From contig CP070777.1 in the NCBI GenBank assembly GCA_020346225.1, forward strand, positions 1,542,288-1,581,790: a stretch of 39,503 nt of DNA, written 5' to 3'. A program made the position numbers and the translations under genes. Below the pieces are notes generated by a model, which saw only the letters and a list, made by a program, of their open reading frames with translations, was not told the origin of the DNA and searched no databases. Each line of letters starts with the position of its first letter. Position 1 is the stretch's first letter. This stretch comes from Candidatus Zixiibacteriota bacterium (GTDB taxonomy: Bacteria; Zixibacteria; MSB-5A5; GN15; FEB-12). Below are positions 16,601-28,890 of the stretch, in pieces.

Positions 16601-17128
16601 GCCGACGGCCGCGAGGTGAAAATAGGCGGCATACTGACGGCGGTCAAAAAGATGCCCGACAAGAAGGGCAACATGATGGCCTTTGCAACACTGGAAGACT
16701 TCTCGGGCTCGGTGGAACTGATACTTTTTTCGGACTGTTACGACAAAAGCAAGGCGTTCGTCGTCACTGAAACGATGGTATGGCTTACGGGTCGGGTATC
16801 GACCCGCGAAGGCGAGGCTTCCAAGGTAATTGCAGCGGAGGTTCTGCCGCTCGAAAAACTGACGGAACGCTTTAATTGCCAGCTTGTTATAAAGATAGGT
16901 CGGGATTGCGCCGACAATCTGGTTGACCAGGCGCTGGCCGCGCTTGAGGAAAACCGCGGAGAGGCGCCGGTTTTGCTGACAATACAGGAGAACGGATCCG
17001 AAGTCTACATACGTTCTGACAAGTACCTGGTGAGGCCGGATTTCGTGCTGGTGGACAGACTCAAGGAACTGCTCGGCGAGTCGGCCGTTTTCTTAAGACC
17101 TCTGAGCAGAAAGGAGAACTTTGTATAG
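13676..17128 (+). CDS. dnaE: DNA polymerase III alpha subunit (DnaE type)
   Basis: 1150 residues, normal length for the replicative polymerase DnaE (E. coli 1160). It starts with a PHP domain ('FVHLHTHSQYSLLDGA', 'ITDHGNLFGAIEFYK'). The three catalytic aspartates fall at D402 and D404 within 'PDIDIDF' (401-407) and at D555 in 'LLKMDFLGLRT', nearly identical in position to the E. coli enzyme. The helix-hairpin-helix region and a C-terminal OB fold ('VKIGGILTAVKKM' to 'VELILFSDCY') follow. A clamp-binding-like Q-N-S-H-D-L-F occurs at residues 906-912. The protein synthesises the chromosome as part of the holoenzyme. No clear ribosome binding site precedes the ATG. The last eight bases overlap the start of a thioredoxin-fold gene, indicating co-transcription. 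Confidence 0.98.
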   Translation: MKYANFVHLHTHSQYSLLDGACRLDSVVELAKEYRMPALAITDHGNLFGAIEFYKKATRAGIKPIIGCETYVAAGSRFEKKPSSHYPDGGFHLVLLAKNETGYRNLIKLTTAAFLEGFYHRPRVDKELLRQHSQGLLATSACLKGEVNWHLLNGRTDEAVAVARELNDIFGDGNFFLEIQNHGLEKQHLLIPKVEAIARETGVGLVATNDCHYLHQRDSEAHDALLCIQTGKTVSDTDRLRYASDQIYFKSASEMEAALGDYKAALENTVHIAESCHLELELGSLKLPRFPIPKPFVDPDVYLRHLCEQGLKERYSRLGEEINKRLDYELSVIKQMGYAGYFLIVKDFCDYARFRKIRVGPGRGSAAGSLVSYALRITNIDPIKFDLLFERFLNPERVSMPDIDIDFADRGRDQIIQYVIDKYGKENVCQIITFGTMMARGVVRDVGRVLGMPYGEVDRIAKLVPERIGITLETALKEVPELTQLKESDPRVEKLLDYSITLEGLARHCSTHAAGVVIAPSALTNFVPLFKGTKDEITTQYDMKMVEEIGLLKMDFLGLRTLTVIDDTLRMVVENHGQEIDIDNVPLDDAEVYRIFANGDTIGIFQFESLGMRDHLRRLCPETFTDITVMNALYRPGPLDSGMITEYIERKRGAKKVEYLHPKMKEILGNTYGVIVFQEQVLHIANALAGYSMGSADLLRKAMGKKDASLMAAQKREFLKGTESGKIERQTAEEIFNQIETFARYGFNKAHSTCYAYIAYQTAWLKHHYPREFMAALMSSEINSTDRIYQLLEECRRMRIKVLPPDVNESGVDFSVVEGQVRFGLMAIKNVGEGPARAIVQEREESGPYSDLADLVSRVPLKSVNRRILESLIAGGACDSLRGHRAQQHAAVEAMLEFAHRVAAHQNSHDLFADKAGAIRRVAPPLPDIPDWSNSETLAQEKAILGFYISGHPLDKYRDELAHFTDFKIGELARAADGREVKIGGILTAVKKMPDKKGNMMAFATLEDFSGSVELILFSDCYDKSKAFVVTETMVWLTGRVSTREGEASKVIAAEVLPLEKLTERFNCQLVIKIGRDCADNLVDQALAALEENRGEAPVLLTIQENGSEVYIRSDKYLVRPDFVLVDRLKELLGESAVFLRPLSRKENFV
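17111..17116 (+). promoter_or_regulatory. Ribosome binding site deciding a TTG start inside the end of dnaE
   Basis: AAGGAG, four bases before TTG at 17121. It lies within the last codons of dnaE, and no in-frame ATG with better spacing exists. Confidence 0.6.
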
Positions 17129-17678
17129 CCGTTCGGACAGATTCACTTCGCTTGCGAAGCTGGCAGCACTTTCGGTGGGGCTTATGGCCCTGGTGGCCCT
17201 GAATTTAATGGGTGCCGAAGACCGCCTTCCCGGCACCGACAGTCCGCCGAAAGATTCCACGGCGGTAATCGAGTGGCAAGCTTACGACGCCGGCCTGAGC
17301 GAAGCCAAAGAAGAAAACAAACACGTCTTCATCGGCTTCACGGCCAGGTGGTGCTACTACTGCCGCAAGATGGACAGAGAAGTCTTCACCGACCCCCAGG
17401 TTATCGAGCTGGTCAATAAAGACTTCGTCCCGGTCAGAGTCGACGGCGACTCAAAAAGAGAACTGGATATCGACGGTTACAAAATCACGGAAAAGAACCT
17501 GACTGTCGGTGAATTCGGCGTCAGGAACTTCCCTACTTTCTGGTTTCTAAAACCCGATGGGACCAAGCTCGGCGCCCTCGTGGGCTACCGGCCTGCGGAA
17601 GAAATGCTGAAGGCGCTGGTGTTCGTCAAAGACTACCGGTACGATTCCACGGACACATCGACAGAGGACACTGAATAG
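17121..17678 (+). CDS. Exported thioredoxin-fold protein with WCYYC active site
   Basis: 185 residues. The N-terminus has basic residues and then a hydrophobic segment (about residues 12-30), a signal peptide or membrane anchor. The mature part begins with an acidic linker and a thioredoxin fold with 'FTARWCYYCRKMDREVF', the pattern of DsbD-gamma/SoxW-like periplasmic thioredoxins in which the CxxC is CYYC; the cis-proline loop is 'GVRNFPTFWFL'. It likely reduces or exchanges disulfides outside the cytoplasm; the partner is unknown. The start is a TTG supported by AAGGAG four bases upstream and overlaps the dnaE stop by eight bases. A link between dnaE and this gene is probably only transcriptional. 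A second exported thioredoxin-like protein follows 102 bases later. Confidence 0.82.
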   Translation: MYSRSDRFTSLAKLAALSVGLMALVALNLMGAEDRLPGTDSPPKDSTAVIEWQAYDAGLSEAKEENKHVFIGFTARWCYYCRKMDREVFTDPQVIELVNKDFVPVRVDGDSKRELDIDGYKITEKNLTVGEFGVRNFPTFWFLKPDGTKLGALVGYRPAEEMLKALVFVKDYRYDSTDTSTEDTE

Positions 17679-17780: not shown

Positions 17781-18320
17781 ATGACCAGGATTACTGCGAC
17801 TATCATCCTTTTTTTCACAATGATGCTGCTGGCAAGCTGCGGTGGTGAGAACAAGGCCGAACAGTCCGACCCGGCCTCCGATGCAAATCTCCACCAGAGC
17901 GATTCGGTATCATCGGAGTTTATCTTCAGCGCTTATGACATCGACGGAAGCTTGAGAAGCTCCGGCGAGTGGGTCGGCAAACAGCCGGTGGTGATAAATT
18001 TCTGGGGGACCTGGTGTCCTCCGTGCCGCAAGGAAATCCCCGATCTGGTGAGGATCTACAACGAGTACCAGTCGCGGGGCATCGAAATCCTGGGAGTGGC
18101 GGTACGGGATCAAGCCGGCAGTGTGGCCAAGTTCTCGTACGAGAACGGGATGAACTGGGTGATGCTGATGGGTGATAACAGCCTGGCCATGCGCTACGGA
18201 ATCACGGGCGTTCCGACCACCATTTTCGTTGACGGGGGCGGCAACGAAAAAGGCCGGTTTGTCGGTCCGCGCGACTATGAAACCTTCAAACAGGCCTTCG
18301 AGATGCTTCTTCAGCCTTGA
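17781..18320 (+). CDS. TlpA/ResA-like thioredoxin lipoprotein
   Basis: 179 residues. The signal peptide ends in a lipobox, LAS-C20, so the protein is lipid-anchored facing the periplasm. After a polar linker comes an AhpC/TSA-type thioredoxin fold with 'VINFWGTWCPPCRKEIPDL', the WCPPC centre of TlpA/ResA proteins, and the cis-proline loop 'GVPTTIFVD'. Family members keep heme-binding cysteines reduced during cytochrome c maturation or serve general periplasmic thiol reduction. A heme c oxidase gene pair converges from the right and a tetraheme cytochrome lies 10 kb away, which makes a cytochrome maturation role attractive but unproven. An AAGGA ribosome binding site sits at good spacing before the ATG. 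A strong terminator follows. Confidence 0.88.
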   Translation: MTRITATIILFFTMMLLASCGGENKAEQSDPASDANLHQSDSVSSEFIFSAYDIDGSLRSSGEWVGKQPVVINFWGTWCPPCRKEIPDLVRIYNEYQSRGIEILGVAVRDQAGSVAKFSYENGMNWVMLMGDNSLAMRYGITGVPTTIFVDGGGNEKGRFVGPRDYETFKQAFEMLLQP

Positions 18321-18403: not shown

Positions 18404-19429
18404 TCAAACCGGCTGACCGCGGCCGCCAAAAAACAGCTTCAGCATATACCACACCAGTGCAATAGCCAGCAAGAAGCAAATCAAGAACACCACAAACACC
18501 GACCACTGCGGGCGCACGGCAATCGCGGCCGGGTCAAACTTACCCTCCAGTAGCAGCAGCCGGAGCGTATGACGAACAAACACCATGCCCAGAAGCGACA
18601 CGGCCAGCATCAGTCCCGACCAGACGAATCTCTTCTTGAAGACAAAGTGCAGCGAAAGCAGAGACAGGACGATGGCGACCACGAGGACCCAGACGGCCGG
18701 GCTGCGCATCAGCGGCAGGATATAATCGCCCAGAGTGAAAAGGTAGATCAGGCCCAGTACCATGGCGGCGGCCATGCCCCAGAGATAGAAAGTCTTGCCG
18801 GTGCCGTACGCCTGCTGGTCGTCTCTGCCCAGCAGGGCGACGAAGAAACCGCCCACCGTCAATGCCCCCAGAAGCATGTGCAGCCACCTGAACAGGTACG
18901 ACCCGAAATCGGTGTTCAGTACCAGTCCGGACTGGTTGCCGGCATACAGCGAGAGATAGAGTTCGGGATGCTCCGCCAGCGAAAAGACCGAACTGTACAC
19001 CAGCGAAATGTAGAGAAGCCCGATCAGGGCTACCGTGAGATATGTCCCCAAGCGCCGGCCGCCGGAAACCACCGCGAAAGACGAGGCATACAGGAAATAG
19101 TAAACGATTATAGCCGCAAGCGCTATCATCAGCCAGAACCAGGCGCTGACGATCGAGGCGGAGTAGACCTGGTCGGCGTAGACCAGCTGTACGAACAATA
19201 GCGGCGCCACGCCCAGCGTAATGGTGGCGGCCATGGCGTTGGGAAGTTGCTTGATGATGCCGCCGACGGTCGGGTGGTTCCATTTCTCGCTGAATCGGCC
19301 GAAAAGCAATATTATGACTCCGCCAACCACGAAATTCATGGCCAGGAAGTGCAGTGTCAGCGTCACGACATGAAGGATCGTCACCAGCCAGAGAGGCGCC
19401 GACAGGAAATTGTAATCGGGTAAGTTCAT
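18404..19429 (-). CDS. Partner subunit of a bd-type oxidase, apparently a degenerate CydA paralogue
   Basis: 341 residues with eight or nine membrane helices. It is not an obvious CydB. By eye it aligns with its neighbouring CydA-like subunit: H27-F-L-A-M-N-F-V-V-G-G here lies over H23-V-F-V-S-H-F-A-I-G-G there, and 'SAWFWLMIALAAIIVYYFLY' lies over 'TEWTFFAIEITAVLLYFYG', with both glutamates (E104, E111) replaced by alanines (A96, A103). H184 in 'FRWLHMLLGALTVGG' sits where E. coli CydA has the heme b558 ligand H186. I infer a heme-carrying or structural subunit derived from CydA by duplication. The ATG overlaps the stop of the upstream subunit by four bases (ATGA), so the two are translationally coupled and probably made 1:1. 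It could instead be a highly diverged membrane cytochrome b. Confidence 0.72.
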   Translation of the reverse strand: MNLPDYNFLSAPLWLVTILHVVTLTLHFLAMNFVVGGVIILLFGRFSEKWNHPTVGGIIKQLPNAMAATITLGVAPLLFVQLVYADQVYSASIVSAWFWLMIALAAIIVYYFLYASSFAVVSGGRRLGTYLTVALIGLLYISLVYSSVFSLAEHPELYLSLYAGNQSGLVLNTDFGSYLFRWLHMLLGALTVGGFFVALLGRDDQQAYGTGKTFYLWGMAAAMVLGLIYLFTLGDYILPLMRSPAVWVLVVAIVLSLLSLHFVFKKRFVWSGLMLAVSLLGMVFVRHTLRLLLLEGKFDPAAIAVRPQWSVFVVFLICFLLAIALVWYMLKLFFGGRGQPV

Positions 19430-20937
19430 CGCGTCCCCCCTTCGTTCAAGGACAGCAGGTACTCGACCAAGGCCTGGCGCTCGGTTTCGTCGCCGGTGAA
19501 ATCAGGCATCTCGTCGCCGAATTCCCCGGCCATGTCGAGGATGCCGCCCAGGTCATCGGCGGTCAGACCCGCCAGGGATTCCCATTTGTCGTTGTAACCG
19601 CCTATTTCGTGGCAACCGCCGCACCTGACACGGTATACTTTCCGGCCAAGCTCGACTCCGCCAAGACCGTAAATCTCACCCAGGTGCCGGTTATCCAGAC
19701 GGGCATGAATGTGGGCGGCGATAAGCTCTGCTTCCTCTTGGGTTCCCATGAACGGCGGCATGTTACCTTTTATCACGCCGGTGCCCCGGACAATGGCGGC
19801 AATGAAATCCCGGTCGGTACCGTCGAAAGCAGGCTCGAGGGCTTTATAGCCGCCGACAGTATGACAGCTCCGACAGGCTCTCCGAAAGAGATCGGCGCCG
19901 TCATCGCCGGTGCGAAAAACTATCCAGCTCAAGTAACCTTCTTCGGCATATATATCCGCTCTGGCTACCTCGAGAGCGTTGCCGTACATATGACCGGAGA
20001 TGACATAGGGCTTGCGGATCGACTCGCGCATCCACTCGTACTCGGCAAACCAGCTCAGGCCGAAACCCATGACGATTATGGCCACGACGATATTGTACTT
20101 CTTCGGTATGATGAGACCGAAAAGAAGCAGCGCAACCGCTATCAGGCCGGCGTTCCAGAACGAGCCGGTAAGCGAGGCAATCGGTGTCGGCATCATTTCC
20201 AGAGCGGTGCTGGTGATCGCGGCCGGGATCGATTTCCAGTACCAGTAAAATGTCGGCACCATAACGACCAGACCGGCCAGCGCCCACCGGGCGTTGTAGC
20301 GAACGAGAACTTTCTTGAAATCGTCCGCCTTGTAGCGGGAGGCTATCACCAGTGCGTAAAGCCCGGCCAGCATGATGCACACGCCGGTGCGGAGCCACAG
20401 CGACGACCAGAAAGTAGGGTTGAAAAAGCCGTCCCAGAAACTGCCCGTGACCAGCCAGTCGCCGGGTGTCAGCATAAAGGTGATTATCCCGTTGATGACA
20501 AACAGTGACATCCAGGCGGCGCCGAAGTAGATCCAGCCGACAATAACATGAGCGCGGGCCGTCATCCGGTCCCACCCGTAGAAGTACAGCAAAACGGCCG
20601 TTATTTCGATCGCGAAGAAGGTCCACTCGGTCGCCCAGCCCCAGACAAAATTGTGGATGAGGGCCTCGGTGGCGGTCGGGTTCAACAGACCGATTATGAA
20701 CCAGATACCGACACCCGTCAGGGCCCCGAAGACCACTGTCACGAGAACGAAAAACTTGCTGAGCTTGCGCAGAAACTCCAGCATCAGCTTATCGTTCCTT
20801 TTGCGGGCCCTCGTTTCCGCCACGACGAGGTACAGGCCCCCGCCGATGGCAAAGTGGGAAACGAAGACGTGGACGACGGCAATGCCGGCCATCAGCAAAC
20901 CGTAGCCAATGCCGACATCCCAAAAGGGATAATTCAT
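19426..20937 (-). CDS. bd-type oxidase catalytic subunit (CydA-like) fused to a diheme cytochrome c tail
   Basis: 503 residues. Residues 1-315 are a CydA-like core of about eight helices: H23 matches E. coli H19 (heme ligand), E111 in 'FFAIEITAVLLYFYGWDR' matches E107, E104 lies next to the E99 position, and E305 in 'RESIRKPY' matches the glutamate of CydA 'E-x-GRQPW'. The b558 ligand H186 appears to be R183, and there is no recognisable quinol loop. The C-terminal part has two class I heme c sites, C355-R-S-C-H359 with 'MPPF' and C439-G-G-C-H443 with 'EMPDF'. The core reduces oxygen; the tail suggests electrons come from cytochrome c rather than quinol. I chose the ATG at 20937 (GGAGGGAGAG upstream) over an in-frame ATG at 21012, which precedes the promoter -10 box. 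It overlaps the partner gene by four bases. Confidence 0.82.
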   Translation of the reverse strand: MNYPFWDVGIGYGLLMAGIAVVHVFVSHFAIGGGLYLVVAETRARKRNDKLMLEFLRKLSKFFVLVTVVFGALTGVGIWFIIGLLNPTATEALIHNFVWGWATEWTFFAIEITAVLLYFYGWDRMTARAHVIVGWIYFGAAWMSLFVINGIITFMLTPGDWLVTGSFWDGFFNPTFWSSLWLRTGVCIMLAGLYALVIASRYKADDFKKVLVRYNARWALAGLVVMVPTFYWYWKSIPAAITSTALEMMPTPIASLTGSFWNAGLIAVALLLFGLIIPKKYNIVVAIIVMGFGLSWFAEYEWMRESIRKPYVISGHMYGNALEVARADIYAEEGYLSWIVFRTGDDGADLFRRACRSCHTVGGYKALEPAFDGTDRDFIAAIVRGTGVIKGNMPPFMGTQEEAELIAAHIHARLDNRHLGEIYGLGGVELGRKVYRVRCGGCHEIGGYNDKWESLAGLTADDLGGILDMAGEFGDEMPDFTGDETERQALVEYLLSLNEGGTR

Positions 20938-20983
20938 AGCGACACTCTCCCTCCGTTCCTTTGTTGAGGAGATGCTTTTCGGT

Positions 20984-21012
20984 ATTTTACAGAATACGTT
21001 TGAAGCGGGCAA
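20984..21012 (-). promoter_or_regulatory. Sigma70-type promoter of the bd-type oxidase operon
   Basis: Minus strand TTGCCC (21007-21012), 17-base spacer, TAAAAT (20984-20989). The predicted start near 20977 gives a 40-base leader to the ATG at 20937. Confidence 0.55.
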
Positions 21013-28263: not shown

Positions 28264-28815
28264 ATGATGCGTAAGTTAATGGTCATTATCCTCTTAGGGT
28301 TGGCTCTGCTGGCTTTTACGGCCATGCTGGCTACGGCCCAGGAGGCCGAGAAAGAAGCCAAAAAGGAAGCCACAAAAGAGGGCAAAGGCACGGCTCATGA
28401 GTTCGTTGGTGCGGACAAGTGCAAACTGGGACCCTGCCACCCCACCGTTCATGAGTCCTGGCTGGCAACCAAGCATGCCAAGGCCTTTGACCTGCTGTCT
28501 GACGAAGAGAAGGCGAAACCTGAATGTGCCGGCGCCTGTCACATTACCGGCAAACTGGCTGACGGAACTGTGCTTGAGGGAGTCCAGTGCGAGGCTTGCC
28601 ACGGGCCGGGCAAAGACTACAAATCGCCCAAGATCATGAGCAAGTCGAAGTGGAAAGGCGATCCCGAAGCATACAAGAAGTTGGCTATTGAAGCCGGGTT
28701 GATCTACCCGACTGCCGAAACCTGCACCGGGTGCCACAAGGAGGAAGGCAACCCGAACTTCAAACCCTTCGACTTCGAAAAGTCAAAAGGGACGGTTCAT
28801 CCTGCAAGCGAGTAG
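28264..28815 (+). CDS. Secreted tetraheme cytochrome c (cytochrome c554-like) with two unusual heme motifs
   Basis: 183 residues with a signal peptide (cleavage near 'ATAQEA', about residue 26) and a lysine/glutamate-rich linker. Four heme attachment sites are visible: C53-KLGP-C58-H59 (CX4CH), C88-AGA-C92-H93 (CX3CH), C109-EA-C112-H113 and C154-TG-C157-H158. The spacing and text around them ('HESWLATKHAKAFDLL', 'EGVQCEACHGPGKDYKSP', 'AETCTGCH') resemble cytochrome c554-type multiheme proteins, in which the first two sites are normally CXXCH. The histidines at 'H-ESW-x-x-x-x-H' could serve as distal ligands. It probably carries electrons in the periplasm; the partner is unknown. Promoter, ribosome binding site (GAGAGGT) and terminator are all present, so it is a monocistronic and probably well expressed gene. 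Confidence 0.85.
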   Translation: MMRKLMVIILLGLALLAFTAMLATAQEAEKEAKKEATKEGKGTAHEFVGADKCKLGPCHPTVHESWLATKHAKAFDLLSDEEKAKPECAGACHITGKLADGTVLEGVQCEACHGPGKDYKSPKIMSKSKWKGDPEAYKKLAIEAGLIYPTAETCTGCHKEEGNPNFKPFDFEKSKGTVHPASE

Positions 28816-28858: not shown

Positions 28859-28884
28859 AAAGAGCGGCCGACCGGCCGCTCTTT
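28859..28884. terminator. Bidirectional terminator between the tetraheme cytochrome gene and the cell-wall operon
   Basis: Perfect inverted repeat AAAGAGCGGCCG/CGGCCGCTCTTT (28859-28870 and 28873-28884). The A and T flanks allow it to work on both strands. Confidence 0.85.
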
Positions 28885-28890
28885 CTCTAT

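Follow-up and report, generated by a model that had tools for sequence, protein, structure and literature searches.

A tetraheme cytochrome of the c554 fold from Zixiibacteriota with lengthened motifs at heme sites 1 and 2

Can a small multiheme cytochrome in which two of four heme-binding motifs carry additional residues between their cysteines still be expected to bind four hemes, and does the presence of a CX4CH and a CX3CH site in one chain call for a heme attachment system of its own? The question is raised by a gene in a 39,503-nucleotide stretch of DNA (the window) from a genome of Zixiibacteriota. The gene, located at 28264..28815 of the plus strand with the stop codon included, encodes a protein of 183 amino acids, of which approximately residues 1-25 (28264..28338, plus strand) were read by eye from the translation as a probable Sec signal peptide; a start with Lys/Arg is followed by a hydrophobic stretch and an ATAQ end, and the proteins of the same genus start alike. 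The heme sites, likewise on the plus strand, are CKLGPCH (site 1, CX4CH; C53, C58, H59; 28420..28440), CAGACH (site 2, CX3CH; C88, C92, H93; 28525..28542), CEACH (site 3, CX2CH; C109, C112, H113; 28588..28602) and CTGCH (site 4, CX2CH; C154, C157, H158; 28723..28737), and together they account for eight of the eight cysteines. Frame, codons and motif positions agree exactly with the first-pass annotation of this DNA. When the mature sequence was shuffled, a sequence with one or more CX4CH and one or more CX3CH motifs arose in 15 of 20000 trials. A terminator-like hairpin with a T-rich run was recognized by eye 3' of the gene (28861..28890, plus strand), and a search of the plasmid collection gave no match.

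The assignment of the protein as a c554-like tetraheme cytochrome, proposed from the letters alone, is borne out by its score with Pfam PF13435 (Cytochrome_C554; 30 bits, cut-off 20.8) and by its predicted structure. The AlphaFold2 model, with a mean pLDDT of 86.8, matches c554 (1ft6) with a Z score of 11.9 at 2.6 Å over 134 residues; OcwA (Z 6.7), penta-heme c552 (4.6) and MccA (3.4) rank below in this comparison, which covers only the multiheme families present in the comparison list. The PDB sequence match to c554 has an E-value of 7e-7, and the four heme sites follow the c554 order. The match to the cytochrome c3 family PF02085 is weak, with 14.9 bits against a cut-off of 22.9. With the model of the Nitrosomonas c554 itself, NF043010, 38.4 bits are reached against a curated cut-off of 400, and the all-CX2CH pattern of that protein is not found, two of the four sites being CX4CH and CX3CH. 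Since CX2CH at site 1 is no family-wide rule, this deviation bars the statement that the protein is c554, not its membership in the c554 fold.

Searching genome contigs with the window cytochrome yielded 78 loci. Homologues at E-values up to 1e-15 are found in 92 of the 132 genomes of the phylum, the nearest named relatives (L003, L004) being Candidatus Zixiibacteriota. All phylum matches were fetched except G023:C1:431432-431917, which contains an internal stop. Frames below 320 amino acids were taken, homologues of 320 or more being excluded; of these 137 frames, 109 were distinct and 107 were aligned, the alignment omitting L118, which is cut at a contig end, and L051, a longer protein. Site 1 is CX2CH in 98 of the 107 rows, CX4CH in five, CX3CH in three and CXCH in one; at site 2, 91 rows have CX2CH and four CX3CH, the remaining 12 having lost the motif; at site 4, CX3CH occurs in two rows against CX2CH in 105. 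Site 3 is invariant in its spacing and in its C, E, C and H columns, with C109 and H113 present in 107 of 107. Stretching of sites 1 and 2 in the same protein occurs in the window genus only, in four of four species: CKLGPCH and CAGACH are found in the window species, CAKVCH and CGGACH in G025 (L003), CAKVCH and CAGACH in G026 (L004), and CAKVCH and CVTPCH in G027 (L083). The first-pass annotation had made its case depend on conservation of the longer spacings; both sites are indeed stretched throughout the genus and the cysteines are conserved in the relatives, but within the genus CX4CH at site 1 is confined to the window species, the three others carrying CX3CH at both sites. A frameshift or assembly artefact was ruled out, because the insertions are whole codons and the other three species of the genus, each with an assembly of its own, are stretched at both sites, while the last codon added to site 1, being seen in one species, rests on one assembly. 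With the protein of G096 (L117 253-693, minus strand), which has a contracted site 1, CSCH, in frame (TGT TCC TGC CAC) and is otherwise intact, orthologous first sites with one, two, three and four residues between the cysteines are available in natural proteins approximately 45-80% identical to the window protein. A contracted (CXCH) heme motif was reportedly treated by Ferousi in 2019.

Beyond the four motif histidines, H71 (28474..28476, plus strand; His in 104 of 107 rows) and H179 (28798..28800, plus strand; His in 103 of 107) are the only conserved histidines that are candidates for distal heme ligands, and M125 (28636..28638, plus strand; Met in 104 of 107) is a further candidate. At M125 a change of the distal ligand from His to Met may have occurred relative to the Pseudomonadota relatives, which carry a His, whereas the conserved Met of the window family lies two residues further on.

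For the order of changes, a tree was made from 137 columns and 107 rows, the motifs of sites 1, 2 and 4 being left out. As the columns are few and 40 forks are open, the numbers of changes, namely five at site 1, two at site 2 and two at site 4, are minima on one tree. The window genus forms one starred clade, and the loss of site 2 likewise maps to one starred clade, made up of 12 rows (L128, L134, L140, L149, L150, L152, L154, L158, L032, L165, L166 and L167), in which none of the three motif residues is left and the substitute pattern ends in YY or FY, so that triheme proteins result. Three rows within this clade possess CX4CH at site 1 (CGLKPCH, CGLKPCH and CALKPCH); its letters resemble the CKLGPCH of the window protein, yet judging from the tree it would have been reached separately. 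Within the genus, the tree suggests that site 1 passed from CX2CH via CX3CH to CX4CH.

Whether the stretched sites are in use can be approached from the divergence of the four species of the genus. In pairwise comparisons pS is 0.69-0.82, which is near saturation, and pN is 0.09-0.19, and the codons of the motif cysteines and histidines show synonymous differences only. Because Cys and His were retained while the synonymous sites came close to saturation, the stretched sites of the window cytochrome are probably in use. Disuse in this family takes the form seen in the 12-row clade, with all three motif residues replaced, a pattern from which the window genus is free. The neighbourhood of the gene is also kept across genera: of the 31 loci compared, 15 have a glycosyltransferase gene to one side and 13 a 2'-5' RNA ligase-type gene to the other, counts that are minima as flank lengths differ. 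Constraint, the contrast with the clade that lost site 2, and conserved neighbours favour vertical inheritance of a gene that still works and uses both sites, while stopping short of proof that heme is bound.

Heme attachment in the own genome would have to rely on a single operon encoding CcmA, CcmB, CcmC, CcmE and CcmF (L112 6876-11808), where CcmA was assigned by position and by its ABC ATPase domain. The encoded CcmE carries CPSKY. A CcmE match is present in 109 genomes of the phylum, and each of the 30 further loci fetched from these has CPSKY as well; a review (PMC3601427) gives CcmE of this type as the signature of System I*. PF01578 matches CcmF and CcmC only, and ResB, sought with PF05140 as the test for System II, has no match in the own genome. 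For CcmH, the best PF03918 match in this genome has an E-value of 0.29 and 11.5 bits, below the cut-off of 25, and absence of the protein is likely, albeit unproven, since the genome is 95.6% complete. In System I*, CcmH is frequently, not universally, absent. Among other multiheme ORFs in the stretches read, 6 of 99 motifs are stretched, a partial count that is less than a whole-genome one; these are CGETCH in an ImcH-like protein, CLNSGCH and CVTFCH in one 527-amino acid chain, CSSECH, CGKEGCH and CYANCH. Given a single Ccm operon and stretched motifs in other multiheme ORFs, one ordinary Ccm machine most likely serves all stretched motifs of the genome. The earlier suggestion that the two spacings bear on which heme lyase system is needed finds nothing special in a genome with one Ccm system, one CcmF and no ResB, and a dedicated lyase was rejected on the same PF01578 and ResB results. 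Genome-wide drift toward CX3CH was rejected as well: a degenerate DNA pattern occurred 153 times (71 + 82) versus 190 times (107 + 83) for the reversed control, the test being an insensitive one. Two thioredoxin-fold proteins, one of them lipoprotein-like, are encoded in the window at 17121-17678 and 17781-18320 of the plus strand, and either could reduce apocytochrome thiols.

Against this background, the explanations that compete with four functional heme sites can be weighed. System I*, with a CXXXY-type CcmE and without CcmH, might permit the spacing to drift, so that stretched sites would mark the organisms that employ it. The CPSKY of the own genome and of all 30 other phylum loci fetched, the lack of a CcmH above the cut-off, and the same equipment described for the host of the archaeal cytochrome MmcA are in line with this idea, but site 1 is CX2CH in 98 of 107 rows that come nearly all from the CPSKY phylum, and the Pseudomonadota control failed it. 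Family matches are present in 26 of 398 Pseudomonadota genomes, and 30 of the 32 matching proteins were read, two having no locus. In 16 of these 30 a CX3CH or CX4CH is found, always as the first motif, and those examples that were aligned place this motif at site 1. CcmE sequences from 20 of the 26 genomes, among them the 16 with stretched sites, were examined; 19 are of the His type and one, from a stretched-site genome, stops short of the motif, which leaves His-type CcmE in 15 of the 16. System I* as the cause of stretching is thus weakened, and we hold it to be very unlikely. As stretched first sites occur in Pseudomonadota with His-type CcmE, they are a general habit of the c554 fold under both Ccm types. 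The claim that these positions are normally CxxCH in relatives consequently stands for the own phylum, which supplies nearly all rows (CX2CH in 98 of the 107 for site 1 and in 91 for site 2), and falls for site 1 in Pseudomonadota. A stretched second motif occurs in 0 of the 30 Pseudomonadota family proteins; across the 107 homologues and 30 controls, CX3CH at site 2 is the rarer feature and peculiar to the window genus.

The stretched sites could also be on their way to being lost, in which case site 2, and perhaps site 1, would bind heme loosely or through a single cysteine, if at all, leaving a carrier with two or three hemes. The outright loss of heme 2 in 12 of 107 rows shows that the family can do without it; an origin of HAO through loss of heme 2 is raised as a possibility in a published discussion (PMC6703420) and may be counted on the same side; and the window protein has an excess of stretched motifs, two of its four compared with 6 of 99 among the remaining multiheme ORFs that were read (Fisher p 0.03). 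All the same, the two cysteines and the histidine of each site persist in four of four species in spite of near-saturated synonymous divergence, true loss of site 2 removed all three residues, and H71, M125 and H179 are all retained within the genus, so that ongoing loss is judged unlikely. A different view of the same site places the emphasis on heme 2 as an active-site heme held by a CX3CH tether. Site 2 is aligned with heme 2 of c554, which is called the active site in both c554 and OcwA (PMC6703420), and CX3CH at this position is limited to the window genus (4 of 107; 0 of 30 in the Pseudomonadota control); set against this, neither a substrate nor an operon partner can be named and the other conserved residues are unchanged, which makes this view extremely improbable. 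Rather doubtful, finally, is the wider proposal that in one genus a c554-type carrier was rewired at hemes 1 and 2 by longer tethers, with heme 2 as an open-coordination active site and a family-wide change of the distal ligand from His to Met at another heme.

As regards the role of the cytochrome, its gene stands alone between unrelated genes in its own genome, and partners are therefore guessed from distant relatives. In the relative L022 the gene adjoins one for a seven-motif ImcH-like protein (NapC/NirT domain, CGTVCH) and one for a nine-heme cytochrome, the label ImcH-like being based on the number of motifs, CX3CH and the NapC/NirT domain as compared with the description in PMC6295460. 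Relatives of both genes are present in the own genome, elsewhere on the chromosome. There, a cluster of six multiheme cytochrome genes lies on the minus strand at G000:C1 ~65.1-77.0 kb (L224); it includes the ImcH-like gene with CGETCH at 72.1-73.7 kb and the gene of the 527-amino acid protein, whose 15 motifs include both CX4CH and CX3CH. A Rieske protein, a cytochrome b and a nine-heme cytochrome are encoded side by side at ~2.157-2.161 Mb of the same contig (L219 8556-11411, minus strand) and correspond to a bc-type complex with a multiheme c subunit. In the window, a cytochrome bd-type subunit I fused to two cytochrome c (CBB3-like) domains is encoded at 19426-21012 (minus strand), next to a membrane protein without a Pfam match (18404-19429). 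The likeliest role of the window cytochrome would be that of a periplasmic shuttle from quinol oxidation at the membrane to further cytochromes.

Summarizing, the protein is best regarded, with good though not full confidence, as a periplasmic tetraheme carrier of the c554 fold that is exported by Sec, receives four covalent hemes from the single Ccm system and has functional stretched sites. Two observations weigh against this view, namely the isolated position of the gene in its genome and the conservation of no more than two candidate distal histidines, H71 and H179. In the proposed course of events, the ancestor of the genus would have gained one residue within heme site 1 and one within heme site 2, and the window species one further residue in site 1. 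After export, the single Ccm (System I) machine would attach four hemes covalently; the extra residues would most likely loop out, so that both cysteines remain within reach of the vinyl groups of the heme and the iron is still bound by the histidine. The function as electron shuttle between the membrane and outer cytochromes would probably be unchanged. From four bound hemes and looping out to the order of changes and the shuttle role, this scenario is one that we infer.

Should the rewiring of hemes 1 and 2 nevertheless prove true, heme 1 spacings of one to four residues together with the clade that lost heme 2 would constitute a natural series in which tether length tunes potential or reactivity. 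The tolerance of heme lyases for spacing is usually probed with engineered cytochromes. The natural first sites with spacings of one to four, all apparently matured by ordinary Ccm, would offer ready-made test substrates for heme attachment. For annotators there is a warning, in that the window protein would be labelled a diheme if CXXCH were the only motif considered.

A published description of the window cytochrome was not found in the literature on CX3CH/CX4CH and on Zixibacteria multiheme proteins, as covered by titles and abstract openings with few subscription papers. The co-occurrence of both spacings in one chain, taken as unusual in the first-pass annotation, is not new, since it is found in the 527-amino acid protein of the same genome and in MmcA of Methanosarcina acetivorans, for which mass spectrometry established heme on CX3CH and CX4CH of one chain (PMC11024163) and a Ccm apparatus that has a CXXXY CcmE but no CcmH is described as the maturation system (PMC11024163 and PMC9084895). 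MmcA shares this combination with the window protein but is heptaheme, archaeal and part of Rnf. ImcH-type quinol oxidases are a widespread multiheme family with a conserved CX3CH, according to PMC6295460, but as seven-motif membrane proteins they are another kind of cytochrome than a tetraheme carrier. The stretched sites are, accordingly, a modest variation, such sites being already known elsewhere. As to overall architecture, the tetraheme cytochromes c3 of Desulfovibrio (PF02085) are likewise small tetraheme carriers of the periplasm and possess CX4CH sites, whereas the fold match of the window protein is to c554 instead. With c554 of Nitrosomonas europaea (PDB 1bvb, 1ft5, 1ft6; PF13435) it has in common the fold, the order of heme sites, the CE[AS]CHG.G signature at site 3 and a His at the position of H71, while the aligned sites of c554 are CX2CH where sites 1 and 2 of the window protein are stretched.
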